Positions 4,246 through 33,190 of a DNA stretch of 33,190 bases are shown piece by piece. The number at the start of each line of letters is the position of its first letter. The first letter of the stretch is position 1. The translations under genes and the position numbers were made by a program. The DNA is from Boletus sp. NGJ (Eukaryota; Basidiomycota; Agaricomycetes; Boletales; Boletaceae), in contig JAGTXK010000180.1 of NCBI GenBank assembly GCA_019096195.1, forward strand, positions 1 through 33,190, read 5' to 3'. The notes under the pieces were generated by a model. It had not been told where the DNA came from and made no database searches. It worked only from the letters and a program-made list of their open reading frames with translations.

Positions 4246-4639
4246 GCATACCAGTTCTTGTATGACCACCAAATCATTTATTCATTTATTAGTACATAAT
4301 GATAACACTGCATAAAGCCGAGTCCCGAGAACAAAACAGAGAGGACGATGAACTCTGAGTCCAAAAGCGACAGAAAGTGACAGAGAGCAGCTTGAATAGA
4401 ACCTGAAGCTGAATGAAAGGATGTGATGCAATGGTCCGAGAGTACACGTGATTGAGACGAAAGGCATGGCACAATAGTCCGAGAATGCGTGCGATCAAAA
4501 TCTATGTGAGTTCTACATAGCTGCCCTGCCAGTGACGAATCTTGGTATTGAGTGTGCGATGGGGCAGTGGATAAGTGTGACAAAAAAGCTGCTCCATGTG
4601 TTGGGAGCGATGTGGTTGTGATGGTCTGTGAATATGTGG

Positions 4640-12376: not shown

Positions 12377-12677
12377 ATTTGCTGATGGTTTACCTGGTCG
12401 CAACGAGGTCACAAAGCTGCGAATACATGCAAAAGACATGAGGCAGTGTGTGAACAGACCACATGGAGAAGGAAACATGTGTATGGAGTATATTTGCATA
12501 CCATGAGTAAACCGAAACACATTGTTCTTTTGTTCTTCAAAGCAGACAATTGTGTACCAGTAGTGAGGATGTCTTCAATGAACACCAGTGGGTAGCAGGC
12601 CCAAGGTGTGATTGAACAATGCTAACCATTTAGTAAGACCAAACAACAGTACTTGACACCAGTCGCTCTGACGAAGT
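12377..12677. other. Spacer between Plavaka right end and right WD40 copy
   Basis: About 300 bp with no gene that I can support and no clear match to the left flank of the element (3847-3954). Confidence 0.4.
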
Positions 12678-14130
12678 ATACGCAGTTGCATTCCACCCTG
12701 ATGGAGAGCATCTTTTAGGCGGGAGTGAAAATGGCATTTGACGATGGCGACTTTCAAATGGTCAAGAGGTCACAAAACAAACGGGAATGAGAGTGAATGC
12801 CATTTCTGTGTCGAGGGATGACAAGTGGATAGTGTGTGCGACTATGGGGGGAGTAGACATGTGGGACTGAGAGATGCGTGTAAAGGTCACTGACGTGGAG
12901 AGCAGAAACCCGGTGTTGGCAGTGGACATTTCCCCAGATTTGACCTGGTTTGCCACTGCCAGGACTACCCACAATGAAGCAAGCATTCGGAGCATTGAAA
13001 CTGGAGAGCGACTTGTTGGCCCACTTGAGCATGACAATGCTGTCACTGGACTCAAGTTCTCCCCCAATGGCGAGCACATCGCCACTGCATGCTACAGTCG
13101 CTCAATTCGTGTTTTCAACAGTCACAATGGTGATGAGCTCATCACTGGCATCGACACCACCATATCTGAACTTGCTCCAGTCACTCCACTTATGTGGTCA
13201 AGCAATGGTCAACAAATCTTTGCCATATCCAAGGACGACAAATAGCATAGTCTGAGGTGCCGTCAAGCACCCCACTCCTCAATCATTTGACTATGACGAG
13301 GTTGGTGATTACTTTATTCTCCTCTTGCTTCTGTGTTGACGCTACTGGAGTCTATGTCCACTGCATCCTCTGCCAATCTCTGGGAGGATGAGATACCGCC
13401 GGTTGGTTCATCTAATGTGATAGCACAGTCATCAGTGTATCCGCCAGTGGCCTCCCCTGAAGAGGCATGTTGATAGGAAAATCTCGAGTCGTCCAAGACC
13501 ATGGTGATCAAGAGGTGGCTCAAGACGAGGTTCAGGAAGAGTAACAAGGACCTAGTGTCACACGAGCCTGCCGACCATCGATCTCCTTCCCAGTCACCAG
13601 CAAGAGTGGATGACAGGCAAGAGGGACCTTCAATGATGGCTGTGAGTGCATTGCCTTCAAGGACAATTGAATGCACTGTGTCGAATATGTCTTAGCTGGC
13701 GAGGAACAAAATCATTAAATGAAGAACAGTTCATTGTTCCTTGGATTTGTAGTATGCAGAGATTCATCACACATTACAGACTAAATTGCACAGCAAGACC
13801 ACTACTTCCAAACATCCGAACGAAAACACTTCTCATAGTGGGCAAGGTGCTGTGAATGCAAGTGAAGTGGACCAGGTGCATCTCTTTCTGGTGATGATGG
13901 ACCTTGTCACATCAGTTCAGCTCCCAGCAGACACAACAAGCCACTAATCCATCCCAACCCTCGCCTGCGGGAAACCATGTAACAGTGCACTTTACTTTCC
14001 TCTCACCTACATTGTTAGACTTACAATAGATCAGCATCAGGAAGAATCAGGCTACAGGACCCTCTTGATCAGATATCCCATGTGGTTGTTGTGTTGTCAC
14101 TGAGGTACACATGACAGGACACATTGATCA
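12678..14130 (+). pseudogene. WD40-repeat protein gene, right copy (deleted, decayed)
   Basis: The copy begins gtatacgcagttgcattccaccctga, matching base 11 onward of the left copy. WD40 segments are visible (LAVDISPDLTWFATAR, LKFSPNGEHIATACYSRS, WSSNGQQIFAISKDDK) but in-frame stops break the 5' part, such as tga at 12738 and tgggactgag near 12864. At about 13240 the blade stops at KDDK and jumps to tagcatagtctgagg, which corresponds to about 1167 in the left copy, so about 600 bp with the last blades and first tail exon are deleted. Tail-exon remnants (KRWLKTRFRKSNKDLVSHE) follow to about 14130. Many left-copy CG dinucleotides are CA or TG here. Confidence 0.75.
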
Positions 14131-14950
14131 AAGTGTTTGCATGCATGACATGTAGTAGATATCACATTATTTTTGCGAGCACTGTTATATGTGGTGAGGT
14201 GCGTCTTCCGCCTATACACAGATTGAAACTATGATAACCAGCCCTCTCGTCGACTAGTGACAACTTTGAATTGGATTGAAAGAAAACTGTTTACACCCAT
14301 GGTCCTAGGCTCCGTTCCTACTGCAGCAGTGAAGGTACACCAACTGTGCCTGTAAGCTTGCCCAAGTGGGGCATTGACTGGTTCAAGCTGGAGATGGAAC
14401 ATTGTGTCCTGATCAACTTATAACTCTTCAGTAGTTCCATTGGTCTGTACAACAAACGCTAGTGTGGTAAAATAATATCCCAACCCTTGCATGCAAAGCC
14501 AACCTATCTGAGACAAGGGGCGGCTCCTTGAAGACCCCTCATGCATTATGTTTGTGTTTGTGTTTGTGCGCTCATATTTGACGATTGGGACGGTGAGGGG
14601 ATGGACGTTGTAGTGGTGGGGACAAAGACACATCGCTGTCATCATCATCATCATCGTTGTGGGGGTGAGGAGACTGGAATAGCAAGAGAAAGGGATGGTC
14701 ATAGCAGTGAGTTGAGGACAACATGTCGTCATCGTGGGGGCAAGGTTTGGAATGTGGGGTGGTGAGTGCACAATGATGCATTGTCATCGTCTTGAAACAG
14801 GGGGGTGGTGACAATCATCATCGTCAGGTGGATTGTAGGCACATGTGCATTGTGCAGTGCTTCTGCACGATGAGGTCAACAATGAAAGCCTAAATGTTCT
14901 GTTAGAGTGACTGCCACTGTTTTCATTAATCAGATCTACAAGTACCATTG
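12678..14950 (+). repeat. Right arm of the direct WD40-locus duplication
   Basis: This arm matches 11-3846 in the same orientation, ending at agatctacaagtaccatt. From about 14530 to 14950 it corresponds to 3547-3846; the intervening 1.04 kb of the left arm is absent. CpG loss is obvious in the final 150 bases, where left tgcgttgtgcggtcg appears here as tgcattgtgcagtg. Confidence 0.85.
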
Positions 14951-16440
14951 GAACATTCCTATCTAACTTGGGGTTCAACTGTGACCATTCAGCTCAGCAA
15001 GAGGTCATCAGGTCCGTAGAGTAGTGGCATGTACTGATGTGTTGAATTCTGTGTTTTCGACTAAGGGACAACTTGAAGTTTCAAGCTAAACTTCAAGAGA
15101 TTCATATGTTCACATTAGTGCGTGTGCCACCTCCAACTCGATGACCTACATTCACAACTTTTCTGTGCTTGTGACACTGGCATAGGCACTTGGGATACAA
15201 CGACCAAACCTGTTGGTAATTTGAGGTTCATAGGGATGGTGATAGAAAGCCAAACAAGGTGTAACTGCTGATAAAACAGGTGAAAAGTAAACCAATCATG
15301 AAATCAGTCAATCTCTTCTAATGGCATGTGAGATTCATCAGAATATCAAAAAGCGAAGCACTCACCAGCGTCAAGCTGAGTGTATGCCTGATGCATCTCA
15401 TAAACGATGATCTTAAGGTGAGCCACTTCCTCCGCCTCTAGTACATCACAATCCCAATGCTCACCCAATTGCGGAGTCCTGCGAATCTATTGATTCCATC
15501 AATTTCCATTGGTCGAATAACAGGTGTTCTGGGGAGATGTACCAGTCTTTATTCTGGAGATCAAGCCTACAGGGCCTCAGTAGGTTTGAACTTGTGTCTG
15601 CTCAATCAAGTTTGGGGGAAATTTGCCCACTTTCCAAGCTTCATGCAGTCAGCGCAATTGACACCAAATTGTGCTTCTATACTGCTGAAGCTTGGCGCGC
15701 CATCACCCACACATACGATCAGCTCTCCACTGACACTGCTCCACTGTCAATGGGTCTGCGGTCCAATGGTGAATGGACCATCTGGAGGGAAAAGAACATT
15801 AAGAGGCTTGTTGTATGGGGCGTAATACTAGTCATTATCCCTGGGATTGAACAGGTGAGAATGGATTGGGGCTAAACAGTACTTATCGATCCATTCTGAT
15901 GAACTGCTTGAACAACATGAACAGGATTCAGATGAGGAGTCTCACCTGTAGGTCTGGTGAGTTGTAGTTCAGTGCCAACCCATGCTCCCAGCCCCTTACT
16001 AAGCTTCATCCACAACTCAGGGCACTTCAAAAGAACCTTCAGCAACACATGCCATAACCCACACTAAGTCACATTCATTATACTCCACCTACTATTTAAG
16101 TCTATGAGGGATTGGCAGAGCCGGATGGGTATCAGACGGATCAGAAGACAAGCTAGATGTAAAAGAGAGAGGATGAAGACTGTCACATGACCTGAGCAGC
16201 TCGAGTGGCCCAAACCTCAAGCACCCCACTCTCTTCAAACTCCCTCCTAACCATTTCTCTGATGAACCACAACCCATCACTCCCAACTGTACGACAGACT
16301 CCACAGGCCAATGTACATGTCACACCCTGAAAGTCACCTTACCACACCACCTTACTCAGCACAAAATAAACTGTCACTGCGACTTGGAAGATCTGCATGT
16401 CTAAAACAGCCAGCAGGAATGGCAGACTAGTGGGGGAAAT
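14951..16440. other. Anonymous region with weak coding-like stretches
   Basis: No gene can be assigned. Two short stretches look coding-like. On the minus strand at about 15445-15365 there is a helical-looking segment (EAEEVAHLKIIVYEMHQAYT). On the plus strand at about 15537-15875 there is an open frame containing AEAWRAITHTYDQLSTD and WTIWREKNIKRLVVWGVILV. They may be remnants of older elements. The rest (15880-16440) shows nothing that I recognise. Confidence 0.3.
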
Positions 16441-16605
16441 CTACATCAGTAAATATAGGATTTCATCATAGTGCTCATAGTGCCATAGTAGTTTCATAGT
16501 AGTCATAGTAGTTTCATAGATAACTCATAGTGTTCATAGTATCATAGTATCATAGCATTTCATAGCATTCATAGTACATTCATAGTAGTCATAGTCATAG
16601 TAGTA
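16440..16605. repeat. CATAG-rich low-complexity tract
   Basis: The motif catag recurs about twenty times with short spacers (catagtag, tcatagtagt, catagcat), an imperfect simple-sequence array. It ends just before the TCCTAA hexamers at the left edge of the KDZ element. Confidence 0.8.
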
Positions 16606-16613
16606 ATTTTAAG

Positions 16614-16641
16614 CTAATCCTAATCCTAATCCTAATCCTAA
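16614..16641 (+). repeat. TCCTAA hexamer array, left edge of the KDZ element
   Basis: Four and a half copies of the hexamer TAATCC. The complement (TTAGGA) differs by one base from the common fungal telomere unit TTAGGG. The inverse array is at 33172-33190. Confidence 0.85.
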
Positions 16642-16974
16642 ATCAAAAGCATACAAAATGTGTAGTCAAATGTGTAGTTAAATGTTGTACAAAAAGTATA
16701 GGAAAGAGTGTAGTACAGTGTAGCAAACAGAGTGAAGTAAAAAAAAGCAAACAAAAGTGTAGCAGAGTGTAGTACAGTGTAGCAAACAAAGTGTACCAAA
16801 AGTGTACCAAAAATGCGCACCAAAGTGTAGTAAAAGTGTAGTCACAATGTGTACCAAAAGTGTAGACCTACACTCAAAAAAAATATCCAAGTCCATTTTC
16901 CCACACTCAGTGTTAAAAAAGGGGACATTGTTTGCCAATGTTTGTGCCACCATTCACATGATGCAGTCAAATTT
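16642..16974. repeat. GTGTAG-rich low-complexity tract inside the left edge
   Basis: The motif gtgtag recurs with aaa-rich spacers (agtgtagtacagtgtagcaaac is repeated near 16706 and 16767). No counterpart is visible at the right edge, so the two ends are asymmetric here. No gene. Confidence 0.7.
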
Positions 16975-18130
16975 GCCCATAGCATATGGTGAGCCTGCTT
17001 GCAAAACACCCAACATGTACGGATGATACTGTGATAGGCCCGAGATATATGAGATGCATAAGACACGGCCGGGCCTGCCTAACATGCATTTACATAGGAT
17101 ACGGAAGGCCCTGGAAAGGGTAACTAGATGAAGGATCAATAGATACGAAACAGCCCCCAGTGGGGTGAGTAAGATTGAGGTCAATGCATATGATGGGACT
17201 GAGTAGGGTGGGGGTGTCCAAGTACTGATATATATGACAGGACTGAGCAGTGTGAGCATGGCTGACCATGGTGTATACAACAAGACCGGGCAGGTTGGGG
17301 GTGACCGAGGGCCAATGTATATGACCACACCAAGCAGTATGAGGGTGACCAACCTCAATGTATACGGTGGGACTGAGTAGGGCGGAGGTGACCAACTACC
17401 AATGTATATGACCACACTGAGCGGTGTGAGTGTCACTGACCTCAATGGATACGATGAGACCGAGCAGGGTGAGGGTGACTGACCTTGATGGATACAACCA
17501 CACCGAGCAGGGTGAAAATGGCTGACATCGATGGATACGATCACACTGAGCAGCATGAGCATGACTGATCTCAATGTATACGACAGGGCCGAGCAGGGTG
17601 GAGATGACCAAATGCCGATGTATATGACCACACTGAGCAGTGTGAGTGTCACTGACCTCAATGTGCATGACGAGACCGAGCAGGGTAGAGGTTACCAAGT
17701 CCCGACGTATACAACCACACCGAGCAGGGTGATGGTGACTGATCTCAATGGATACAACTACACCGAGCAGTATGAGTGTCACAGACCTCAATGTATATGG
17801 TAGGACTGAGCAGGGCAGAGGTGACTAAGTGCTGATGTATATGACAGGACTGAGCAATACAGAGGTGACTGACCTCAATGCATACAGTGTGACCAAGAAG
17901 CATGGGTGTGACTTACCTTAATGCATTTGACCAGACCAAGCAGTGTGAGCGCAGCTTACCTCAATGGGTACAGCAGGACCGAGCAGGGTGGGGGTGACCA
18001 CTTGCCGATCTATGTGACGGGACTGAGCAGTGTAAGTGTGACTGACCTTGATACATATAATAGGATTGAGCGGAGTGAGTGTGACCTAGTGCAATGGATA
18101 CAGAAGAGACTGAGCAAGGTGCATGTGACA
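16975..18130 (+). repeat. Left long terminal inverted repeat with 43/44-bp tandem units
   Basis: The outer 200 bp are unique-looking (agcctgcttgcaaaacaccc, ggaaggccctggaaagggta). From about 17190 to 18130 there are about 21 diverged tandem units of 43 or 44 bp, with the unit beginning accgagcagggtgagggtga and ending near gatacaaccac. Period 43/44 is not a multiple of three, so open frames running through the array are repeat artefacts. The array is the reverse complement of 31565-32820. Confidence 0.85.
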
Positions 18131-18320
18131 CACCTTGAATATGGGGAGATGGTATGGCTAATGTATTGTTCTGTCCAAAATCTACTCTCCTTGGTGGCTG
18201 TGAATGAGTCTCCAAATCTGGACTAACACTTGAAACATGAGTTTCCATGGGAACCTACCACTCCATATATTATTTTCCCAATTCCTGCTTTCCCCAATCC
18301 TCTCGGATCTTCCTTTCACC

Positions 18321-19572
18321 ATGAGCCCCCCTGAAATTCCTGACAATTGGGCCATTTCCTATACTGATAAATTGGCTGCCTATATGGTGTCTAGATTTCA
18401 GAATTCCCTGCTGCCTACCAACAACAACAATTGGCCAAAAATTCCACCTCTGTGCATTCCCATGCAAACAGTTTGTGAGGCAAACAGGATGGTCAGCATC
18501 ATTTCAAAAGCATATCAAAACAAGGGTATGGCTCTCACATTTGATAATGCCCTGCTAATTCCTGCCCAGTGATGATCAGCAATGTCAACATCATTCGGCT
18601 TGGTGAACGAATCAAAAGGAGGGGACATTCAACAGTGCCATCAGATGCTGATGATCAGGAATATACTGTGCTCACCGAATCCACTGTTGTTACTGATCAT
18701 TCAGGCTATGTCTTACTTTGGTATTTACCTAATGCGATCAGCCACCCTAATCAAGTGAGTATGTCCCTGGGTTCCACAACCATCTCACTGATAGATCAAT
18801 CAAGTGATACATCTGGGAACAGCTACTGCTGCTCTCTGGGCCTCTTTCCTGCAGCTTGACTGGGAATACTCACTGGCACATCTCAGAGGCAAACTTCCAC
18901 CCTATGGCAAAGCTGTGAGGGACGATCAACCTATCCCCTGCTTGGTTTCAACAGGGCCAAAATGTCAGTGTTTATTTGGCTTTCCCTCTTTTTCATTAAC
19001 CCAACATTGGTCAACAGGGGGAAAATGGGCCACCTGAGGTCTCGGCACTGTTCAAGGCAACCAAAACTGACAGTGGAGCATGTGAATGGCTGCTGGCCAT
19101 GAAAGAGCATTCTGCTCTTTTGGCAGCATCGGTTGCCATCCTGCATCCAGAAATGTATGATTTGGGTTGGGAGGTATTGGTTCAGCTTGGCAACTGGGTG
19201 GCCACACAGGAGGACCTTGACATGAAGGATGTACTTCCTTTGTGGTCATCGGTTTATAATGTTGTGTCCGTCATGGTCAACCGAGTGAGTCCATTTCACA
19301 CTGATATCAACAGAAGGCCCCAGTGGTTGGATCTTCTTGTCTTGGTTGGCGACTACACCGGGTTAGATTTTATGGTCCCCATCATCAAGCATCGGCTTCG
19401 GTATGACCCAGGGACAGTGATCACATTCTCGGGGCAAATACTCAAGCATGGAGTTGGTCAAGTTGAAGGGGAGTGGGGGGTGCTCTCATACTACATGCGG
19501 GACAATGTCCATGAATACATGGATGTTTCCTGCTGTAATTACATGAAATATGAGATGTGGGGAGGACAGTAA
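18321..19572 (+). pseudogene. TET/JBP-family 2-oxoglutarate/Fe(II) dioxygenase (5' part damaged, catalytic exon open)
   Basis: Family role: oxidation of 5-methylcytosine or thymine in DNA. The start at 18321 (MSPPEIPDNWAISYTDK) opens exon 1; a 44-bp intron at 18526-18569 with branch-like gctaat joins it to ISNVNIIRLGERIKRRG. A second intron begins at 18755 (gtgagtatg), and a third spans 18964-19017 (gtcagtg...caacag). The exon before it carries the family motif NLSPAWFQQGQ but has an in-frame TGA at 18916 and probably a frameshift near 18857. The last exon (19018-19572, 185 codons) is fully open. It holds the iron-binding HxD (PFHTD), DLLVLVGDY, YDPGTVITFSG, the distal His (LKHGVGQVEG) and YYMRDNVHEYMDV, which contains a candidate 2OG-binding Arg. 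Trp follows EGE where I would expect Arg (tgg from cgg). The catalytic core could still fold; the full protein is probably not made. Confidence 0.75.
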
Positions 19573-19748
19573 AGAATAGGCAGGCCGTCAAAGTCGGAAG
19601 TAGATTTGTTGCCTCGGTCTGTGCTTGGTTAGTCATCTTTGTCGACGTCAGCCAAGATATCGCTGGGTAAAGCTTGAATTACAAATTACCACCATTAACT
19701 ATGGACAAGGAGTCTGGATCACAGGCCAAGCATGCATCACCGATGCTT

Positions 19749-20495
19749 TCAAAACAGTTTCCACAACCAAACCATATCTACCCAAGACTCTATCATTGTC
19801 ACCTCTGCCTTTGCAAGCTTGGCAATATTTTGCTGAAGCTCAGCCAAAATCCTGGTTGCCAGGGCATCCAGCCGAGCATTGTGAGCATTGTCCAATGGAG
19901 ACTCATCCATTGGCCAATAGTTCTTGTGATGAATTAGCTGACAACCATGATCCAAGCAATCCACATACCTGGAAGAAGATTTCTGCCCTTACAAAGAAAT
20001 CGGCAATGAAGAATTGAGATGCCTTGAGGTGGTAGTCCGGAATGTCAGCCACCCACCATGGATGCTCGAATCCAAAGGTGGGAGCACCCGTGCTTGGCTG
20101 CCAACCTGGCAAGAGCTCTGGGGTTTGCTTCATGCCATCGAGGTCAATTTCAGAGGTGGCACAGATGATGTCCTGTTAGAGATCCTCCAGACTGGTGCTG
20201 ACTTTGATGAATCAGGCACAGGATGGGGTTGGCGGAGGTATGGTGTGCATGGGTGCATATAGGCCTAAGTAAAAGGCCAAGATGTTCTGCAAATCAACAA
20301 TGTCAAAGGGCCGATCTGCAATGTGAAATGGGGAAAACATACCGATTCCATGATCATGTTATCATGCCAAGTTGCTGGCCACTGCTTGGCAGGAAGTCGT
20401 GCAAGATATGCCATGGCCACTTCAATCTGGCACTTCTGATACCACAGCATCATATGGAGAGTGGTGACAGGTGTGTCATCAGAAAATGTTTCCAT
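19749..20495 (-). pseudogene. Unknown KDZ-element passenger gene A (small, stops present)
   Basis: I place the start at 20495 (METFSDDTPVTTLHMMLWYQ). A 56-bp intron probably spans 20342-20287 (gtatgtttt...tttgcag), joining MIMES to NILAFYLGLYAPM. After this two stops occur in frame (TGA 20212-20214, TAA 20176-20178). The frame then continues with LLPGWQPSTGAPTFGFEH, WWVADIPDYHLKASQFF and, after a short intron near 19975 (gtatgtgg...tgtcag), DNAHNARLDALATRILAELQ, ending at 19749. It would give roughly 200 residues, with an amphipathic helical C-terminus. I recognise no family. It converges on the TET/JBP gene (19572) with about 175 bp between them, and lies just downstream of the transposase on the same strand. 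Confidence 0.5.
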
Positions 20496-20654
20496 GGCAG
20501 GATGATGAGGAATGGGGAATATGATGAAACGGAGGGTGTGGAGAGACTGTGGTTATATATTCAGCCCCCGCAGACCTCAGAATATCCTGGATTCATCAAC
20601 AATGCATGACCATTTCGGACAGGCTATGTATTTTTGTCATAATATAATGTCTAC

Positions 20655-23600
20655 TTATAAAAGGAGGCTACCATCCAATGTCTCCATAAGTTGTGACTCC
20701 CGGCAGCTTTTCCACTCTGCCCGACACTGCTTCTGAAGTCGAGCATAGATGGCCTGCTGGCGGGCAGCATAGCATGTTTTTCCTTGGCTGTCATTCTGCC
20801 AACTGTGTGCCACATGCTCTTCCCATTCCCTTGATTTGTGGTCGAAGTAACTGACGGTCCATTCAAACTCGGCCATCAGTAGCTCTGCCTCCTCTCCCCA
20901 CCGATCCATTGTGGCTTTTGCATGCAACCAATGTACCTGGTAGACTGTAGATATATATAATGTTGGCAGAAAGGTCTCATGAGAATGTGGAACTTACATT
21001 CAGACATTCAGACATTCATCTCAGTGTCCCCTGGTATATCCATTGACCAGAACCAGGCCAGGTTGTTGGTGTGATGATTGCGGGAGTTGGGCTTGGTGAC
21101 TGCAGTGCTAACCTTGAGATCCTCGTCCTTCAACACCTGATATCTGGCCAACATGTCATCCTCAACCGAAAGATTTATCATGGCAGATCAGCATTTCTGA
21201 TATATGGTAACTTGCTGAGCAAGTAAGGCGTCCACGGCATTCACCTTTCCCCAGGCTCTGGTGGTCTTCGCATGGCTTGAAGCATGCTGAACGTTGGTGC
21301 AGAACAACACTGCCTTGTCTGCTAATGTGAGCCGGATTTCATGTAAGGCATCATTTGCTTGGCCTGCACGAAGTTTGAGCTCCTGTTTAATCAGGTGGTG
21401 TTAAGAACGGACAACTTCGATGAAACTCCGAAGGACCGGAGTTACTTGAGGGTGTCAGGACTTGGCTTCACCTTATGTGGTGTGCTCTTGCTTGAGTCCG
21501 ATGTCCCAGATTTCGAAGACGTAGGAGGATCAGAGGTTTGGACTCGACATAGTCAAATGTCAAGTCGAGCAGAGGGTCGGAGTGAGTCATCGAGACTCAG
21601 ACAGGAGACAGGAGGAGTGTTCAGAGTTGATATTTGAACTGACTTTACAGGAGTAGTACTGAGGGTTTATATATGATCGGAACGAAGGTATTAGTAACGG
21701 AGTTCGTAAGGTGTAATAAGTAACAGGATGGAGATGGGACCTCGCCGGAGCAGTGCTCCTAAGCAAGACAGATACTGGGTCGGAGACAACTATAAGGCGG
21801 GACTAGGATGGATGAAGAAGCATAGGTTATATATAAAAGGAGAAGTATGAATACTATAGTGAGGGTGTTACAAGTCCGAGGGTATGAGGACGTACTCTGA
21901 GGGAGAACACGCCAGAGTTATGGACAGAGTGCTGGAGTTGGACTTGTCGAATTACATGGGATATAACAGGTGGTGAGCACCAATCGCCATGCACTTGTCA
22001 TGACTCAGGTTAGACGGCAATGACAGCTTCCCCTGATCAGGTTGTTTAGCTCCAAGATCATTGACCATGTCTTCATCTCCAATATTGCTGTCTCCATCTG
22101 ATATGTCTGATTCCAAATCGTCATCATCCTCCAACTGAAGGAATGTGGAAGCTTCGGCAAGGAAGCATGAAATTTCGGCAGCCAGCCAATCGGCTCGGTG
22201 GGCAAGGGCCAGCTGTTGAAGTTCAGTGGCCCTGGAAGCCATCCATTTCATATCTCTGCAGAGTGATATCTGTGCCTCCTCAATTTTCAAACCATTTGCA
22301 AGCCATGTTGCAGCTCTGGAGTGGGCTGCTGGTGTGTGAGTGATGCCCTCAAGCATTTCCCTCTCAATGGCCTGTATGGTCGGTGTTGTACTTGGCAATG
22401 CATGAGCAACAGTCTGAGCTCTGTGGCAATATGCACCATGTTCTGACTCACCTTTGTGTAGCTGCACCCCGAATATATCCATTGCCGATGGATCGCTGAC
22501 TCGTCTCTCCAAAGCCCTCTGCTCCTTAACCAGCCACTGCTGTTTTTGAATGTGGGCAACTCCCCCATCGAGGGCATGGAATGTCACCCTTGCTGATGCA
22601 AACGATTTCCATGCAGCCTTAAGTTTCCTTGCCAGAGTTCTGGCTGGTATCAATGAGTACAGGTGGGATAAATGGGTAAACAACCGCAGGGGAACATACA
22701 CATTCTGATCATTTTGATAAAATTGGAATCGTTCATTTGGAAGTCAAGAAGCTCTTGCCAATGGGGGGAGGTCATTCCTCGGGCAGACCTGGACACAATG
22801 TTCAAAGTAGACCATAAGGTCTCAATGATCTCACCATTGACTCATCCTGCCCCAGGAATGAACAAGGGGGAGTACCGAGCAAAACATGAAGATTGATGTC
22901 CATGCACGTGCCACATCCCAATGCTGGGTATGATGGCCAGATTCAGTGGCAGCTGAATGAACCTGTTATCATGTAGCCAAGCTTGGAGCTTCTTTACATA
23001 AGAACAGTTGATGTCATAGAAACTTATGATGCTCGAAATATTGTTCATGTTGTGGATAAGGGCATTAATAAAAGAGTAGTCCATGTTCACCTGCCTGCAG
23101 GGATCTAGATGATCAGCATATTCATATTCTTCCTACATATTGCTTACCTCTCCCCCTTCTGAAAGTCGACCACTGAGTGTGGTATAAAACAGCCATGCCG
23201 AGCACATGCCGAACCACCAATCCCAGTGGAATCCAATTTGCCTCAGCTGGCATTCGCCTGGTTCACAGCTTGGTGATTGTTGCAACTTGACCTCTGTTGA
23301 TGGATGTCAGTGATTATAGGAATGGCATTCCTTCATTGCATGATTACCTCCAGGGGGTGGTGCATCTCCTTCAGATACTCCTGATAGTTCAGCCAAGTTA
23401 CCATGAAGCCGAGCCCATCCATCAGCCAAATTTGGTCATCAGGCCGTCTCTCCCGCATGTGTTTGGCCTTGAAGTTTCCATCCATGATAAGAGTTCAGCC
23501 ATACTTCCAACTGTTGGAATTTCAATCAGACAGTGCAGCAGTCAATGAATATCATCACCAACTTGGAAAGCTCATTGATGGAAACATGCACATTCATCCC

Positions 23601-24891
23601 CAGTTGAGGACATGCAGGGCAAAAAAGGGCAAGATCTCCCTTCAGTGGCTGCCAGGAATGATGGCCAAAGCCATTCCACTTGAGAAGCTTCAGCAGTCTC
23701 CACTGTCTGGCGACCCTGAGCAACTCTCGGTAATGATTCTGGACCTGCATGAGCAGTTGACATGCAGAAAGCAGGTCAGCAACATACCAGCACAATGTGA
23801 GGGAAGACGTTGGAAGTTATCCTTTGGAGCTTGCTGTAATAGTTCATTCCGGATGTTCCACACTCCAAATTATCTCAGATGAAGTCATCCAGCAGGGTGA
23901 AGGTAAATGCAGTTCTTGGAATTTGTAGCGTTGCAGGGTAAAGCTTGCACCACAAAAGTTGAAGATATTCTGGGTTAGAATTGGGGCATGTGCAGTAGTT
24001 GATGGTCATGAAATGAATCCCAGTCACATCAACCACCATCAGATAATTTGACCTGCTTGGCAGACAAAGGTGTGGCAGAATGTCATCTCAGTGGATGTCT
24101 TCCCAGGCCTTGTCATCCATGGATGCTGGGTTGTCAGGTGTATTCGGATGTTTCTGACTGCCGCTTGGACATGGCCCACCATCATGACTGAGATGGAGCT
24201 CAAATCCGGTCTGTCACAACATGTTTCAAAATCATCCAAGGCTTAGGGATGCTTTACAAAGCTCACCAAGATCAGAGATGAATCATCAAAGAATGCCCCA
24301 GTCCACTACTGAATGCGATGAAAAGGATGCCTCTTATGTCAGTCTCTACAGCACCCAGTGCATAACAGCGGCTGACCGAAACAGTCCGAACACTGATAGA
24401 TGCCATCCCGACAGCATATACAACATTCTCAGAGATCAGTGGGAGCTTCCATGTCCAACACAGCTTGCAGAAATTCTTCCTTGTGAGTGACCTATTCACA
24501 GAAATAATTATTTGAGGTCTAGACATTTGTGTGGATTAGTGCATTCACCAAAATCAAGGATGGGTACATTTTTAGGGGGCAATCAGATTGGCCAAATTTC
24601 CTCTAATTCTCCATTAGCAGCATCCAGCCTTGACCAGATATCATTAGAATAGCAAGTTTAAACATGACAAAGAACATACATGCTGGCACTGAAGGTAAAT
24701 CGAGAGTCAGATGGTCCAGGCTTGCTTGGGGTGGACTGGACAGATTGGGATGGTATTGTGGAAGTTGGATCTTTGGTAGCATCCAATCTAACAAGAGTCA
24801 TCTTAGGCCCCCTTGTGGTATTTTTCGTTATCCAAGTGGCATGTGTAACTCTTCCAGGGTTAATCTTTCATTTGTAGACATTCTTAGGCAT
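20655..24891 (-). pseudogene. KDZ (Kyakuja-Dileera-Zisupton) transposase, inactivated
   Basis: The start at 24891 reads MPKNVYK then TGA. The family's Cys cluster follows (ECCICCRDG, CSDCFGQPLLCTGCCRD, about 24428-24342), then VDVTGIHFMTINYCTC, GTSGMNYYSKLQRITSNVFP, RQWRLLKLLKWNGFGH and FCPACPQLGMN. The RNase H-like catalytic part has LIMDGNFKAKHMRERRPDD (about 23490), FYDINCSYVKKL, SIGMWHVHGHQ and NGEIIETLWSTLN (about 22838). The C-terminal part (ARTLARKLKAAW, KQELKLRAGQANDALHE, RAWGKVNAVDALLA, LAWFWSMDIPGDTE, KATMDRWGEEAELL) ends at 20655. In-frame TGAs lie at + positions 24868, 24429, 24339, 24088, 23875, 23495, 23243, 22842 and 21188, and TAG at 24306. Many sit at conserved Arg sites, as expected from CGA-to-TGA. 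A solo LTR (21399-21968) interrupts the C-terminal exon. Confidence 0.9.
21399..21968 (+). mobile_element. Solo LTR (570 bp) in the KDZ transposase
   Basis: The element runs from tgttaagaacgg to gggatataaca, with perfect TGTTA/TAACA edges. It is flanked by the 5-bp direct duplication GGTGG at 21394-21398 and 21969-21973. A TATA-like tatataaaagg lies near 21831, about 135 bp before the end, giving plus orientation. No internal retroelement genes are present. Removing the LTR and one GGTGG copy rejoins GAHHL to IKQEL of the transposase in frame. It is visibly CpG-richer than the surrounding transposase sequence. Confidence 0.92.
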
Positions 24892-25448
24892 TGTTAGGAC
24901 AATGGAAGACAGTACAGTAGCATGAAAAACACAGATACAACACACTTTACACCACAAGCCAAAACACAAATCAGTAATGCATGTGTACACCTGTGTGGTT
25001 TTTTGGACGCTGTAGTGTCTCATCTCGGCTAGTCGGAACCAAGTCCATGGATATCGGAACTTTGATTTCTCCTGCAGCACTTCTGTCATTCAGTGACCTC
25101 GGCTATGCCTCATGTATGAATATATTGTGATCATGATTGCTTTGGCTAATTACATGGATCAAGGAATATGTCTGCCTAGGGGGGTTGCTGGTATCACATA
25201 ACCAAGTTTGCTGCTTGGTGCCTGGCCCTATGCCATATGGTTCATTTTATATGACTTCTCTTGGTGACATTTCGGGCACTTATGGCACTAAGCCTGGCAT
25301 ATCTTACTTCTCTTGGGAGTATTGTGGTTATCATGTAACCTTGGCTACTTGGTCTCCAGCGATCATGACATGGAGACATAGTTGTTGTAACACTATCCGA
25401 TGAAAAATGAATGCATTGTGCTGCACTTTGAGTCTACCCTCTACTATG
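24892..25448. promoter_or_regulatory. Divergent intergenic region between KDZ transposase and passenger gene B
   Basis: 557 bp without a supported gene. The transposase starts leftward at 24891 and gene B rightward near 25449, so both promoters should be here. No clear TATA box or operator is visible. Confidence 0.4.
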
Positions 25449-28000
25449 TCTGACAACGAGATGGAATACGCCATGACCGACTATCAAGGAACTGTTCATG
25501 ATGGCTCACAAGATGAGATGGAAGAAGAGGAACCCCAGACCAAGGATGTCTCAGCTGAAAATGAGGCAGGGCCATCTTGGAATCCGATGTGACATGAGAA
25601 CCCTGGCATATCTGACAACTCACTGCACATTCTCCAGGAGCAATGGCCATCATGGAAGGCTGTCAGAGGTAAAAAACAACAAACCATCTGGAGGGCTCTG
25701 CTAATTCAGATCCGGTGTCTGAGAGAGAACCTTACCCTGGAGGATGCAGTATGGGAGTGTCAAGTTCAGGTGAGAAACGAAATGTTGTTTCTGTCATGAA
25801 GATTTGATTCCCAATTTTTTGAAAGGGTTATGAGAAATGGATGCAAAAACAAGGGCGGATGGGGAAAAAAAGGGATGGCATCACCCTCAGCACAACATGG
25901 ACAGCTCGGTCTGTGATTCAGGAGCAACAGAAAGAAGAAATCAAGGGGATGATCAAGGATCAGTTCAGTGTGGAGCCAGGATCCTCAGCAATGTTTCAGC
26001 ATTATCAGACAATGCTATCAGAAGTCATGAATGGTCTCTTTCCTAATGAGATCCAGAATACTGAGTCGACTGCCACTGCATGGAATTCACAGGGTGCCAC
26101 AATCGAAGTGAAGGCATGGTAAGTGTTTCTGATTGAAGCATATACTACATGCTGAAATTCATACAGGTTTGCAACAAGGGGTGTGGTGTCAGCCATGAGG
26201 CAGTTCTCCCAGGAAATGTGGAAAAGAGGAGGGATCTGGATGGTCGTATTGAGTGGATTTAAGGATGAGAAAGGGGAGGTGTTCTCAAACCAGTGGGTGG
26301 ACTCTCGGCACTCCAACATTCCCATAGTCTGATTGACATAAGCTTCAACTTCAACTTGGCAATTGAACAGGCCCCATCTTTCCAAGGCTTTGATGCAATC
26401 CAGGGGGACTGGGATAGGTATCTCGGCAGCTGCTTTGCTCCTGCAGACGACGAAGCAGAGGTGGATGATGAAGATGAGCATTGGGTCAGGCTGACACGAA
26501 AAGGTGGAGAAAGCTGAGGCAGAAACGAGGAGATGATGTGGTGAACATGGTAACTCGGTCGGATAGTTCCATCTGGATCCCAGAGTTCACTGGGCAAAGC
26601 CGAGCTAATATGCAAAACATGGTCCGAGGCTTTCTCACCTCACACTACCATACGTCAATGTCATATCTAACTGTCATGCATAACATTAACTGTTTCCAGG
26701 CTTGATATGCAAAAATCCAAAGGTCTCAGCCCCTTTCAAAAAGCATGCTGAGTTCCAGGGTGACCTGTTTCAGCCTGAACATCTTCCAGACGGCTTTATC
26801 TTTCCTGATGATCCTAGTCATCTAAAGGCCGATGATGTCAAACAGTTTTTGGAGTTTATTCGGAAATGACAACATAACAGGCCAGATGATGTCTTTCAAT
26901 TCCAATACTGGTTGGACAGGAAGAATGAGCTTCAGGAGCCTGCAGAGAGCAACGATGAAGGTTTCTCAGAGGTAAAGCGATTGAAGAGATCTCAGCAAGA
27001 AAGATCAAGGGCAAAGAGGCTCTCTGGGACTCTGATCCAGGGACAGAATAATGCTGGCCTGAATGAATCAACCTCAGAGGAAGAAAATTCGGTTCAATGC
27101 AATTTGAGGAGCCCATCCATCCCCTACAGTGAGTGGTCCAAGAGCGAACAAGAAGCCGGGGACCTTCCTCAGAAAATGGTGTCATTCAAGGTGAGCACTC
27201 CAACACGTGGTATGGCATCAAAAGCGCATTTAGATGCATTCATTTCACTGATTCAGTGAAAGGATTAACCGCAAGAAAACCCCAAATAGAGAGTGGTGGT
27301 GACCGAAGGGGCCAAAGTGAAGTGGATGGGTGACTGAGGCTGATCAACATCCAGACCTTGGTAAATGGTCAGTGGTTAATTCTCAGATATCACATTGTTG
27401 ATGCAGTGGATGTGTGCTTGTAGTGGGGCAATCACCAACCAAGAATTCCAAGAATGTGTCACATCATCTGCAAGAACCATTTAAAGTTGGACCGCCAAGA
27501 AATGCCAAGAAGGCAGATCAGGTAACTCGGGAGAATCCTGCCAGACATATTGGGCACAGGAATGAGATACCGGCACCGAAGGAACATTCATTGCTGAAAC
27601 CGACTTTGAAGAGAACCGCCCCAGGCAACGATAATGACCAAGGTATGTGGCTTGATTTCTCTCCAGATGGACTCAGCAAATCCACCTGAAATTTAGCTTT
27701 AGCACCACAAAAAAAGAAGTTAAAGTCGGCTTTAAAGACATCGAATGAATTGCCCCCAGTTGGTCATGCTGGAACTGAGGGTTGTAAAAAACTGAGGTCC
27801 TGAGCTTGCACCCCAGTTGTATCATAAGGGATGGGAACCCAAACCCAAGGTGTGTCCACATTAACCCTTTTCGAATCACTGCTAATTCTAGATTTTTATC
27901 CATAGGCACAACTCCACGTCGATCAGGAAGAGCGCGCAAGGCTCCACTGCCCTCTGATGCAGAAGCATTGACTCCGGGACCTCGGCCGATCAGAAAATAA
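25449..28000 (+). pseudogene. Unknown KDZ-element passenger gene B (long, broken)
   Basis: The start at 25449 reads MSDNEMEYAMTDYQ and continues as an acidic N-terminus. After a TGA at 25590 the frame resumes with HENPGISDNSLHILQEQWPS. An intron at 25770 to about 25825 joins it to KWMQKQGRMGKKRDG and IKGMIKDQFSVEPGSSAMF, and another (about 26119-26166, gtaagtgtt...atacag) leads to FATRGVVSAMRQFSQEMWKR. Frame changes occur near 26330 and 26515. Later blocks are FNFNLAIEQAPSFQGFDAIQ, PFKKHAEFQGDLFQPEHLPD, GFIFPDDPSHLKADDVKQFL (then TGA at 26867) and DDVFQFQYWLDRKNELQEP, before a long Lys/Ser/Pro-rich tail ending PRRSGRARKAPLP...RPIRK at 28000. I cannot name the domain. The conserved central blocks and basic, disordered tail suggest a nuclear protein, but that is inference. 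Confidence 0.5.
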
Positions 28001-28098
28001 ATGTATATGGCTGTTTACTCCTCGTATTATTTTGTAAATAGCTCTGTCAATATGGTTTACAATTTTGCAAAAAAATTTGAAATACAATGCTAAGAACA

Positions 28099-30105
28099 CT
28101 ACTGAGGGGCCGAGTGTTCCCCAGACGTCGCCCCTGCATCTTCCTCCTCCTCCTCCTCACCCAAAGCCCACTCTCCAGCAACCGTCTCCTCTGCAGCCAC
28201 GCTCTCCATATCCATGGCATTGTCATCCTCAGCTTGAATGGTGGTGATAGTCAGCATGGATACCATCAATCTGGGTGTGGATTTCCCAGAAAGATCGGCC
28301 ACCTTGGGATTGAAGATTGATGGAAGCTGTGGGAATAGTCGGGGAGGCCCCCAACTTCCCTCTGAGATCCTGCCTAGGCCACCGCCCCATGTGACAGTCA
28401 TGGCAACCCCAGTGTGAGGTGGCAGAGCTTGACGGGGAAGGGGGGCGATCAGCCAAGGGGATGAGCCCTCGGTTGAAGGAGGGTGGAGGGGAGTGTTGGT
28501 ACCATCGAGTTCAGATCCAGCGGCTTGCTGGCCGAGGGGTGGAGTGGGGGAGGAAGGGGAGCCAAGCACAACTGGCTCAGTAACTGCATTGAAGAACACC
28601 AAGGATGGTGCCCCATTGATGGCTTCGTCACCAGCCTGCTGATGAATGTGTTGGAACAGGAATCGCATTGTTGTGGATGAAGGACGAACCGTATCAACTG
28701 CAGTCCAACCCTGGCGGTCTCTGAGCTTGGTGATGACCTGGCAAAACGTTTCCAATGAGTCGGCCATTGCATTAACCCGATCCTCGAGGCATGAGTGACT
28801 TGCTTGCAGCAGGCAGTGGCTGGCCTGCAGTTGCCGGTGTGCTTGAAGCAGACTCTCGTAGTCACTGGTGTTGGCAGGCTCAGTGTGGCCAGACCAAGCA
28901 TCGTCTGATGTTCCGGCAGTGGACAGTCCAGGTGCTTGCATGGCTGGAACCAATTTCTTCACCCTGGGGATCACCACACCTTCAAGGACTATGTAATCAA
29001 TGTTAGTGGGTAGAATATCACAAGTGTGCATGACTTATCTTGGGCTGGCTTCAATCATTTGGCATTCTTTTGCAGGGGGCCAACTTTGATGGTTGGCGCT
29101 GGCTTACAGGCTGAGGGTGGCCCACAGCATTGGATGTGAATGGCTGGCAATGGCATGGGGGTGGGTGGTGGTGGTGGGGCATTGCATCGAATCTGTGATC
29201 AAGGTGGGCGAGCGCGAGACTTGCTGTGTTCCCACAGTTTCTTTGTTCTCTCCAAGGATGGGGATTGGTGGGTAAGAGAACTCAACTGTTGGCGCAGTCT
29301 TGCCAGGAAACAGCATACCTTCCGCTGGTGGCACTGGACGCAGGCATGGCCAGGATTTGGGGTGCACCTGTTGCCACATTGTTTGCAGGCAGCACATACT
29401 TGCTCAGAATCACCCTCATCCTCCATCTCTTCGGTGGGTGGTGGTGGCCACGACCTGCCCAGCAAGTGTCCACAAGATTTACCTGTCCCTAATGCATCTA
29501 ACAGCTTGACGCATTGCCTTGAACGACCTCACTCTTCAGAATCGGTTTCTGGCGGGTCAATTTGCCGGGCCTTGCCCTTGCCTTTGTCCACCTTCTCTGG
29601 CACCATCTGCACTTTTTTGATGTCGATGTCATCACCATCCTGTGTTGTCCTGACAGCCCGATCCTCAGTGTTGAGTGGCTGTCCTCATGGCCGAGTGACC
29701 TTTGCAGAAGATGTTGCAACCTTGTTTCCAGAATCAACTTGGCCGACATTGAGCCATGGATGATCTGGGCGACTGGAAATGTCATTCTTCAGGATCTTGC
29801 TCCAGTCCAGCCATTGGCTGTTCTGATACTGTAACATCTCGATGTTACAGGCGACGGCCAGGAGAGGTATCATCTTGGCACCACCTGCCACAGCTCAAAT
29901 TGTGTCCTAGCACGAATGTTAGTTAGGCTGTTATGGTATGAGAGATATGATCATGCACCAATTGGCCCATGATCTTGGTAATGGCCTGGTGCCATGCTGC
30001 TGTCCGGGCAGCAGCTCCCTCAGTTGTTCCAAGCACTTTCATTTTGAAAATGTGTTGGATGGTGGCTGTGGTGTTGTCGACGATGGTTTGGATGGTGGAA
30101 GACAT
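28099..30105 (-). pseudogene. Unknown KDZ-element passenger gene C (Cys-rich, broken)
   Basis: The start at 30105 reads MSSTIQTIVDNTTATIQHIF. After a short intron near 29910 the frame continues with IPLLAVACNIEMLQYQNSQW and DWSKILKNDISSRPDHPWLN, then an acidic/basic linker. It then reaches a Cys cluster at about 29405-29315 (VCAACKQCGNRCTPNPGHAC, then QCHQRKVCC), which looks like a zinc-binding module of C-x2-C-x2-C-x3-C type. A final open exon (to 28099) contains a Leu/Gln/His helical repeat (LLQAHRQLQASHCLLQASHS), probably coiled coil, then Pro/Ser-rich sequence and an acidic end. TGA stops at 29685 and 29529 both stand where CGA would give Arg. No known family is claimed. Gene B converges on it, with 98 bp between the ends. 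Confidence 0.5.
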
Positions 30106-30365
30106 GGTGGTGAATGGTGATGCAGAATGGAATGGAAAGAGAAGTGTGGGGTGTGGCAAGTTTTGCTTCGTGAATGCCGAACGGCATTCACCATTGTTTA
30201 GTTCTCTGCCATTGTGGCTCAGCAATTCTGGCTAATGCACTATACTCCATATTTCCCACATAACCGCCCACTCCACTGCTGACCACACGTGTTACCACGC
30301 CCTGATCTAACTTCATCCCATCCCTCCCATTCCACTTTTCCACCATATCTCGGAACAGAGTCGCA

Positions 30366-31394
30366 ATGCAAAAGCAAGTTCAGTTCACGATTCCAGGTGA
30401 GTGCGACGTTCCTGTTCTAAAGAAAATTTCCATTTAAAAAAAATCGAATTCATATGCCACTTTGGTCACCATCAGGCTTGGCCAACAGTGGATCAGACTC
30501 CATTGGTAAGTGATTGGCCTTGGAATTGATCAGTAATTGACCACATTTTAGATCTAGAGATGGCAGATGCATCAGATCTGTTGTGGCATATTCCCACCCC
30601 GCCTCCATTCCATCCTTACCCACCATCACCGATGACGACTGACTTTAACAATTTTACTGATGCCCACTTACCAACCCCACTCCCCTTTGCGATGCCTGAC
30701 ACCCAGCCAGACATGTTCACGAGTGCCTGCATTCCAACTCCTCCTCCATTTCTACCGAATGACATTCACATCCCAACACCACCAAGATTCATTCCGATGG
30801 CCAAAGACCCTCTCCCCTCCTCCACTCCACAAGAGATGGCACAGGCCGGTATCCCTCAGCAGTCGCCTCGCCCAAAAGGCAAGACACATCTACCCACCCA
30901 AAAGCATCAATCGGGTGAGCCAGAGTGGAATGTTCACATATTGCTCGGTTGTGATGCAAGACAAAAGCGTTGGGCAGAGACCATGCAGACCATCGATCAA
31001 CACTGTGAGTTCAATCATCATCTCACCTCCATGATGTATATCTCATTACCTTGTCCAAATCTAGTGGCTGTGAGAAACGATGCCAAGCATGATCAGTTCA
31101 CAAAACAGGGCATCAACATAGATGGAATTCTGGATTTCGGTGAATGCACAATTAAAGTGTAAATGGCTCATTCTGATGATATTGACAGTGTTTGAAAATG
31201 CATCCATGGTTGATTGCATGGTGGAGCAAGTATCCAGTGTTCAGCATAAACCAATTGAACATCCACTTGCTCAGGTGGCAATGGAAATGGCCACAGAGTC
31301 CTTCATTCAGGCCTCTCAGCAAAGAATGGAATTGTTTCAGACCCAGGTAAGGTTGTTGGATATGGTGGAATATATTCAAGAGCAGCGTGTGTAA
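30366..31394 (+). CDS. Unknown KDZ-element passenger gene D (small, Pro-rich)
   Basis: I place the start at 30366 (MQKQVQFTIPG). Introns at 30397-30475 (gtgagtgcg...atcag) and 30506-30551 (gtaagtgatt...tttag) join it in frame to DLEMADASDLLWHIPTPPPF. The main exon has repeated PTPPPF/PTPPRF proline motifs. A further intron near 31009-31063 (gtgagttc...aatctag) keeps the frame (LAVRNDAKHDQFTKQGINID). The last exon, after an intron near 31158-31189, reads MVEQVSSVQHKPIEHPLAQV and FIQASQQRMELFQTQVRLLD, a likely coiled coil, and ends at 31394. No premature stop is seen, so it may be the least damaged gene of the element. Function is unknown; a short Pro-rich protein with a C-terminal coiled coil suggests an adaptor, but that is inference. 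Confidence 0.5.
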
Positions 31395-31564
31395 GAATAG
31401 AATAGACATATATGCTAAATCATAGCATATAGATATGGTGTTCATACAATGAGGAATATGTGGATGCAGTTCAAGGCCACAACTGAGCTCAGTCTGTTGG
31501 CGCATTCATGCATGACCTTTGGTCTGCTATGCAGCGGTCGGTAATCCCTGCTATTCTCAGTCTC

Positions 31565-33042
31565 ACCGTATGTATCCAGTTAAGTACCCACCCTGCTTGG
31601 CCCCACTGTATACATCATGGTCAGTCACACCCACACCACTCAGTGTGGTCATATACATCGGTACCGGTCACCTCTACCCTGCTCAGTGTGGTCGTATCCA
31701 TCGAGGTCAGTCACCCTCACACTGCTCAGTCCCATTGTACACATTGAGGTCAGCCATGCTCACACTGCTCGGTTTGGTCATATCCATCAGTACTTGGTCA
31801 CCCCCACCCTGCTCGGTCCCATCGTACACATCAAGGTTGGCCATGCTCACACTGCTCGGTGTGGTCATATCCATCAGTACTTGGGCACCCCCATCCTGCT
31901 TGGTCCCATCGTACACATCGAGGTCGGCCATGTTCACACTGCTCGGTGTGGTCATATATGTCAGCACTTGGTCACCTCCACCCTGCTCAGTGTGGTTGTA
32001 TCCATTGAGGTCAGTCACCCTCACACTGCTCAGTGTGGTTGTATCCATCAGTACTTGGTCACCCCCACACTGCTTGGTGTGGTCATATACGTCGGTACTT
32101 GGTCACCTCCACCCTGTTTGGTGTGGTCGTATCCATCGAGGTCAGTCACCCTCACACTGCTCAGTGTGGTCGTATCCATTGGTACTTGGTCACCCCCACC
32201 CTGCTCAGCCCCATTGTACACATCGAGGTTGGCCATGCTCACACTGCTCGGTGCGGTCGTATCCATTGGTACTTGGTCACCCCCACCCTGCTCAGTCCAA
32301 TCATACACATCGAGGTGGCCATGCCCACACTACTCAGTGTGGTCGTATGCATTGGTACTTGGTCACCTCCACCCTGCTTGGTCCCACCATATCCATCGAG
32401 GTCAGCCACCTCCATCCTGCTTGGTTTGGTCGTATTCATCAAGGTTAGTCACCTCCACCCTGCTCAGTCTCATTGTATCCATTGAGGTCAGTCACCCTCA
32501 CCCTGCTTAGTGTGGTCATCTACATTGGTACTTGGTAACCTCTCCCCTACTCGGTCTTATTGTATCCATTGAGGTTGGTGACACTCACACTCCTTGGTGT
32601 GGTCATATACATTGGTACTTGGTCACCCCCGCCCTACTTGGTCCCACCATACACATTAAGGTTGATCACCCTCATGCTGCTTGGTGTGGTCATATACATC
32701 GGCCCTCAGTCACCCCCAACCTGCCCGGTCTCGTAGTATACATCAAGGTCAGCCATGCTCACACCGCTCAGTCCTGTCATATATATTGGTGCTTGATCAC
32801 CCCAGCCCTGCTCAGTCTCATTGTATGCATTAACCTCAGTCTTACTCACCCCACCGGGGACTGTTTCATATCTATTGATCCTTCATCTAGTTACCCTTTC
32901 CAGGGCCTTCCATATCCTACGTATATGCATGTTAGACGGGCCCGGCCGTGTCTCACACATCTCATATATCTCAGGCCCGTCACGGTATCATTTGTACATG
33001 TCGGGTGTTTTGCAAGCAGGCTCACCATATGCTACGGGTGAA
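31565..33042 (-). repeat. Right long terminal inverted repeat with 43/44-bp tandem units
   Basis: About 29 tandem units occupy 31565-32820, alternating 43 and 44 bp (an 87-bp higher-order period in places, e.g. ggtcacccccaccctgctcg recurring). The outer 220 bp (ccctttccagggccttccat, tgcaagcaggctcaccatat) are the reverse complement of 16975-17190. The right copy has more tandem units than the left, so arrays changed length after insertion or during amplification. Long open frames here arise from the repeat. Confidence 0.85.
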
Positions 33043-33171
33043 TGTCACCACATGGGCTCCACCATTCTTATATAAACAAGCCAGACTTCAATAACATTCC
33101 CACATCCTCTTATTTCTTAATTTTATCCTTCTCTACTCATTACATGAAGTCAACACTTCACTTTGTAAATC
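33043..33171 (+). promoter_or_regulatory. Outward-facing core-promoter-like segment at right edge
   Basis: A TATA-like cttatataaac near 33069 is followed by pyrimidine-rich sequence and an atg at 33144 whose frame closes after ten codons. No counterpart is visible at the left edge. A promoter function is only suggested by the base pattern. Confidence 0.25.
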
Positions 33172-33190
33172 ATTAGGATTAGGATTGGGA
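33172..33190 (+). repeat. TTAGGA hexamer array, right edge of the KDZ element
   Basis: Attaggattaggattggga mirrors the TAATCC array at 16614-16641 in inverted orientation. It is cut by the window end. Confidence 0.8.

Follow-up and report, generated by a model that had tools for sequence, protein, structure and literature searches.

A KDZ/TET transposon of Boletus sp. NGJ with array-bearing arms and a recurrent set of four accessory genes

Introduction

Why do the genomes of some basidiomycetes contain TET genes on transposons by the dozen? The question arises from a 33,190-nucleotide stretch of Boletus sp. NGJ DNA (assembly GCA_019096195.1, contig JAGTXK010000180.1), called the window here, in which a complete mobile element joins a KDZ transposase and a TET/JBP oxygenase with four further genes, A to D (Table 1). 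The window is the whole of this contig, C33 in our numbering, which stops at position 33190. All genome-wide counts refer to one genome of 32.8 Mb, whose other contigs are named C3, C11, C68 and so on.

The coupling of KDZ transposases with TET is already known, as Iyer et al. reportedly described TET-bearing Kyakuja DNA transposons in 2014. What we add, for one genome, are arrayed arms, the pairing of TET with gene A, a Zn2Cys6-type gene (C) and a recurrent six-gene order. In the literature searched we found no description of the four-gene cargo, the arrayed arms or the TET-A pairing.

We give about an even chance to the following reading of the locus. The window element would be a defective copy of an autonomous-type, TET-bearing six-gene KDZ transposon, in which protein C, possibly together with B and D, binds the repeated sites of the two arms, and TET, paired with A, oxidises 5-methylcytosine at these arrays. 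The CxC2-KDZ protein, judging from its family, would cut and join the element ends. As a result, the arms would be usable despite host CpG methylation, and so would the TET gene, which starts some 0.2 kb further in than the left array. The window copy itself can no longer act alone and would have to rely on undamaged relatives, should any be active.

Table 1. Positions of the element, its target site, its arms and its genes in the window
Feature	Position	Strand	Basis
KDZ/TET element, complete, 16,105 bp	16955..33059		empty-site comparison, four-place alignment, 17 arm ends aligned
Target site duplication CACCATT, left	16948..16954	+	arm-end alignment, empty sites
Target site duplication CACCATT, right	33060..33066	+	arm-end alignment, empty sites
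Outer left terminal inverted repeat	16955..17150	+	inverted-pair search, genome search, end alignment
Left subterminal array, 43/44-bp units, 15 core matches	17150..18100	+	repeat finder, core-pattern search
TET/JBP oxygenase	18321..19572; exons 18321-18568, 18619-18758, 18823-18944, 19018-19572	+	Pfam, gene models, structure-relative alignment, copy alignment
Gene A	19749..20495; exons 20495-20343, 20286-19966, 19919-19749 (approximate)	-	gene models, copy alignment
CxC2-KDZ transposase gene, interrupted, with stops in the window copy	20640..24801 (ends approximate)	-	Pfam, genome search, copy alignment
Nested solo-LTR-like insert (LTR, long terminal repeat), 570 bp, 5-bp duplication GGTGG	21399..21968		TGTTAAG..TAACA ends, read by eye
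Gene B	25446..27998; exons ~25446-25769, 25826-26118, 26167-26292, 26343-26604, 26700-27190 and more, 3' part approximate	+	gene models, copy alignment
Gene C, Zn2Cys6-type cysteine cluster	28100..30105; middle exon limits approximate	-	gene models, Pfam, copy alignment
Gene D, proline-rich protein	30366..31394; exons 30366-30396, 30497-30505, 30552-31002, 31063-31139, 31189-31394	+	gene models, copy alignment
Right subterminal array, same 43/44-bp units inverted, 22 core matches	31590..32830	-	repeat finder, core-pattern search
Outer right terminal inverted repeat	32831..33059	-	inverted-pair search, end alignment

Results

The same six genes recur in the same order

Pfam domains and spliced gene models agree with the sequence-only reading that a KDZ transposase and a TET/JBP gene are accompanied by four more genes in the orientation + - - + - +. 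Between the arms the order is TET +, A -, KDZ -, B +, C -, D +, so that KDZ and B are arranged divergently, as are C and D.

We built gene clusters from six genome searches, one per gene, keeping one row per locus (TET 33 of 40, A 27 of 59, KDZ 35 of 37, B 29 of 63, C 33 of 43 and D 33 of 78). The rows left out cover additional parts of loci already represented, and a few genes may still be represented by two retained rows. All six genes are found together in 13 clusters, of which 10 are clean and three composite (C17, C37 and C73); the C37 composite contains one further full gene set. Each of the 10 clean clusters shows TET+ A- K- B+ C- D+ or the mirror image of this order. As copies, the clusters share a common descent, and C133, which has three of them, seems to contain a duplicated pair.

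Gene A lies at most 3.5 kb from TET in 26 of 27 places, where about 0.2 would be expected by chance (26 of the 35 KDZ rows entered this distance analysis, the nine weak ones being left out). Additionally, 27 of the 33 TET rows come with A and 29 of the 33 C rows with D. B is clustered with another gene of the set in 29/29 cases, whereas C stands alone in 3/33 and D in 2/33. Eight KDZ loci have no other set gene nearby; since all are weak matches (26–35%), they probably belong to other KDZ families. In a diverged element on C128, 20/20 exon blocks match in the same order at 35–79% protein identity; for TET exon 3 and B exon 4 the match is in a non-coding frame only.

Thus, TET-A-KDZ-B-C-D is the standard gene set in this genome. 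That A to D form a standard cargo module, as had been proposed from the sequence, is borne out here by cluster order and A-TET pairing, and few of their matches lie outside the clusters. Elsewhere, a scan of IMG/VR (viral) found no relatives of KDZ, B or A, and one of GTDB (prokaryotic) contigs found none of KDZ.

Two element copies on C133, at 35-49 kb and 56-71 kb (L026, L027, L044), are inverted relative to each other. Several of their gene matches have identical scores, yet the TET/arm part is only ~92% alike, a pattern that would fit either gene conversion or an assembly artefact.

Empty sites define a single mobile unit

The sequence-only reading had placed a 16.6-kb element at 16614..33190. 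Empty sites and the alignment of arm ends move its termini inward, to CACATG.. on the left and ..GGGCTC on the right. The left flank, one CACCATT and the right flank together match 40 rows (40 scored of 173 candidates) at 95–98% identity, with 237 or more of the 240 bases aligned, and the insertion seam is visible when the window element is aligned with four empty places. The match of the joined flanks confirms that the inverted repeats bound one mobile unit. Target duplication and empty sites, together with PF18758 and PF18803, both over their Pfam cut-offs, make it a mobile unit of the KDZ superfamily.

Taken alone, the duplication of the window copy can be read as 7 to 9 bp; under the CACCATT reading it is 7/7. 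In the arm-end comparison, target duplications also flank the copies on C97 (7/7), C68 (6/7) and C73 (6/7). An empty-site search of the genome with the C68 copy returned only its own two flanks.

The insertion target is an older dispersed repeat, to which 16614-16954 belongs. This repeat (16400-16954 and 33067-33190; loci L064-L067) is several hundred bp long, carries CATAGT, CTAATC and GATTAG arrays and is abundant: 240 bp of it have 173 candidate places in the genome. It has the appearance of a non-autonomous repeat family. The earlier left limit is explained by its CTAATC and GATTAG arrays. Position 16614 is ruled out as an element end, as CTAATC arrays are dispersed (180 exact 23-mers) and part of the target repeat. 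A telomeric nature of CTAATC/GATTAG is likewise ruled out by their location inside contigs; the CCCTAA pattern has 11 matches, on C20 and C107.

The perfect target duplication and the flank divergence of 2–5% from empty copies suggest that the window insertion is fairly recent. At non-CpG sites, the window copy already differs from other copies by 4–6%. Possibly the copy was damaged before it moved and was mobilised in trans.

The arms consist chiefly of short arrays

Inverted arms of ~1.1 kb (left) and ~1.5 kb (right) enclose all six genes, in agreement with the claim of inverted repeats exceeding 1 kb, and consist chiefly of 43/44-bp arrays inside short outer repeats. Among the 25 listed of 34 inverted pairs, the best ungapped one (16961-17469 / 32545-33053) spans 509 nt at 88%. 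The outer 180 bp of the arm match at 40 scored places (of 60 candidates), including six convergent pairs 13–22 kb apart. Because such pairs recur and the C128 element matches in all its exon blocks, this arrangement is not due to chance. Most arm ends read CACAT..GGGCTC; the C97 copy begins TACAT.

The C128 arm is ~68% identical to the window arm over 530 bp. The diverged C128 and C101 elements carry arrays of about 43 and 87 bp whose repeat consensus contains the window array core. Core conservation was judged from this independent consensus, since the core-pattern search selects on the unit core. Each unit holds up to two CpGs.

The arrays allow a specific though rather improbable version of the proposed reading: C would recognise the CpG-bearing 43-bp units and recruit TET, with its constant partner A, to the element's own ends. 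Such self-targeted demethylation would place enzyme, adaptor and address in one transposon. Somewhat unlikely, too, but a contender, is that accessory genes and arrays serve transposition, with C, B and D pairing and exposing the ends and TET as an untargeted add-on. In plant CACTA elements, proteins that bind subterminal repeats act in transposition. Arrays in both arms are what synapsis sites would look like, and C74, C101 and C108 each have D, C, B and KDZ grouped with no TET. C101 and C74 do not bear out an ancestral TET-less lineage: in C101 an internal deletion has brought TET exon 1 against the KDZ 3' part, and in C74 the match stops within that part. Moreover, A is almost never found without TET, and TET and A are present in 10/10 clean full clusters (by definition). 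A published view that AG-type TET is perhaps not target-specific (PMC12730594) would suit the transposition role. Targeted oxidation and a role of C and the arrays in transposition are not mutually exclusive.

TET is open in the window copy and the transposase is not

The window TET is open over 354 codons in its spliced frame, with a Tet_JBP domain at 19048-19467 (+; Pfam E 4.7e-12). Its best solved relative is CcTet (7vpn, 8jkk; E 4e-17), and the alignment matches up HxD, the distal H and R. The iron ligands, the 2-oxoglutarate R and Asp337 (CcTet numbering) are intact in three of six aligned copies (window, C133a and C3). Losses are HTN for HxD in C133b, R for the distal H in C97 and W for R in C68 and C97.

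TET might instead write stable oxidised cytosines or oxidise N6-methyladenine (6mA), perhaps regulating or limiting the element and not relieving its silencing. We consider this improbable. In its favour, oxidised cytosines accumulate on silenced transposons of L. bicolor (PMC8889193) and CcTet acts on 6mA too, an activity linked to its Gly331 position (PMC12730594). That position holds R in the window, C133a and C97, which speaks against the 6mA part only, but G in C68, C3 and C133b and S in C128. In these alignments, R at 331 is a feature of some copies and not of the family; AG-type TET/JBP proteins are expected to have Gly or Ser there.

The transposase gene encodes a CxC2 domain (~24051-23806, -; Pfam E 2e-21) and a KDZ transposase in two pieces (~23494-23141 and 23096-22722, -; E 2.3e-13 and 2.1e-23). 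Intact KDZ elements of Pleurotus are likewise preceded by CxC2 (PMC7641404). The catalytic block contains a stop in the window copy and none in C133:43294, C133:61524 and C133:113734. A solo-LTR-like insert splits the window gene and is missing from the same position in five aligned copies. The window copy is thus defective, with this insert and with stops in A, B, C and the transposase. A second solo-LTR-like copy lies in an arm of the C97 element (L015, C97:108412-108982).

Gene C resembles a DNA-binding protein

Genes A to D are all multi-exon. In B, C and the transposase, a number of exon limits are approximate. Stops degraded the automatic gene models made from the window alone; D is open in its spliced frame.

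Zn2Cys6 proteins follow the pattern C-x2-C-x6-C-x(5-12)-C-x2-C-x(6-8)-C. The window spacing in gene C, C-x2-C-x6-C-x7-C-x2-C-x6-C, fits it, the sixth C being present with or without the proposed intron. The first five cysteines (C-x2-C-x6-C-x7-C-x2-C) occur in 6/6 aligned copies, in two of them with a stop inside, and also in C128. Protein C is thus likely of a DNA-binding type. The earlier view that the accessory genes have no assignable function probably does not hold for C; it stands for A, B and D, for which no convincing domain was found. Gene A has no Pfam domain up to E 10, and B exon 1 and D give only weak matches below the cut-off at that threshold. PDB profile searches with pieces of A and B gave nothing useful.

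Copies bear signs of past constraint and of decay

We compared two groups of copies (window, C68 and C133b versus C133a, C97 and C3). The ratio of nonsynonymous to synonymous divergence (Ka/Ks) between groups is 0.34 for TET, 0.33 for A, 0.36 for KDZ, 0.43 for B, 0.37 for C and 0.37 for D; the frame used for TET exon 3 and B exon 4 was non-coding, and the spliced TET frame gives 0.35. Ks between groups is 0.75 for C and 0.50 for D, and Ka/Ks within groups is 0.37–0.51. Together with the stop counts (stop and frameshift counts ignore insertions relative to the window), these values of 0.33–0.43 indicate past purifying constraint on all six genes, followed by decay.

It is therefore highly improbable that A to D are host genes taken up as neutral cargo, since Ka/Ks is well below 1 in all four, diverged elements share their order and few matches lie outside clusters. 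The lack of a convincing Pfam family for A, B and D, and a distant KDZ-TET pair on C11 that shows none of the four, would fit neutral cargo.

In the left two thirds, copies diverge by 0.08–0.10 within groups and 0.09–0.11 between them, whereas from ~26.8 kb onward the groups differ by 0.21–0.36. The copies are therefore mosaics with a switch inside gene B, at window 26400-26800, beyond which two diverged right-hand modules carry the same genes.

The decay itself looks like strong methyl-CpG decay. Among biallelic sites, 2751/3245 are transitions, of which 56% fit an ancestral CpG versus 20% for a GpC control. TGA stops stand mostly opposite CAA (32) or CGA (17) in other copies, as expected from CGA. 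The observed/expected ratio of CpG (CpG o/e) is 0.35 inside the element and 0.74–0.96 in window 1-4500. Per copy it is 0.26–0.39 in 5/6, and 0.62 in C3, whose stretch includes other DNA.

Other features of the window

Positions 1-3817 and 12667-14923 are two direct copies of a stretch bearing a WD40 gene, 76–91% alike by block, with CpG o/e of 0.74–0.96 in the first and ~0.36–0.46 in the second. A DUF6698 domain lies at ~6200-6950 (-; E 1.6e-29) and a Plavaka transposase fragment at 8996-9158 (+; E 1.3e-8).

Discussion

Several observations weigh against the reading of the element as a six-gene transposon with TET directed to its arrays. The gene set is not universal: on C11, KDZ and TET occur as a distantly related pair (40% and 29% identity) with no A to D among the matches, C17, C27 and C109 deviate in gene order or orientation, and many clusters are partial. 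An arm was detected within 5 kb for only 12/33 TET rows and 18/33 D rows (40 of 60 candidates scored in the arm search), and in the arm-end comparison the C3 and C114 arm pairs showed no matching target duplication. The Zn_clus match of gene C (E 5.7e-4, 16/39 positions) falls below its cut-off, with 20.4 against a gathering score of 21.0 bits, and A, B and D lack a recognisable domain. CpG-biased decay may distort Ka/Ks. The arrays, with CpG o/e of 0.41 and 0.37, are as depleted as the interior, and TET has therefore not protected them from methylation over long times; higher values are confined to the short outer ends, at 0.59 and 0.66 from 6 and 9 CpGs. From the literature, AG-type TET has been speculated to act without target specificity (PMC12730594), oxidised cytosines on L. 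bicolor transposons accompany silencing (PMC8889193), and the element's ends differ from those of the two published Laccaria Kyakuja families.

TET-bearing Kyakuja, as described from Laccaria, have 7-bp duplications, CA..TG ends and no terminal inverted repeats (Kojima 2025, PMC12730594). The window element shares with them the KDZ transposase, a TET gene, putatively AG-type and here with HxD and Asp337 retained, the 7-bp duplication and the 5' end CA. It differs in its 3' end (GGGCTC, not TG), its long array-bearing inverted arms and its four additional recurrent genes; no accessory genes for Kyakuja were found in the searched text of PMC12730594. TET-bearing IS3EU elements of rusts also combine TET, a transposase and a further conserved gene (an alpha-kinase) in fixed order, with another transposase, partner gene and host group (PMC12730594).

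Anti-silencing by a transposon TET is a published guess. A parallel is VANC of the Arabidopsis VANDAL elements, a sequence-specific transposon protein whose targets are often tandem repeats and which causes methylation loss over the element (PMC5735166). The likeness concerns the proposed model only, in which a self-encoded sequence-specific protein, tandem-repeat targets and methylation loss would recur, with TET as the enzyme. VANC is not known to be a Zn2Cys6 protein, nor are VANDALs known to carry TET. In CACTA/En-Spm elements, subterminal repeats are bound by TnpA. These, too, are large elements with short repeats near both ends and an extra DNA-binding protein; they differ in an unrelated transposase, a 3-bp target duplication and, in the maize element, the absence of any known TET.

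The recurrent six-gene set combines a protein of DNA-binding type, a constant partner of TET and sites in arrays, and this makes the question of TET targeting testable. The gene set may be a toolkit against the element's own silencing, and could represent a natural system of sequence-addressed methylcytosine oxidation.

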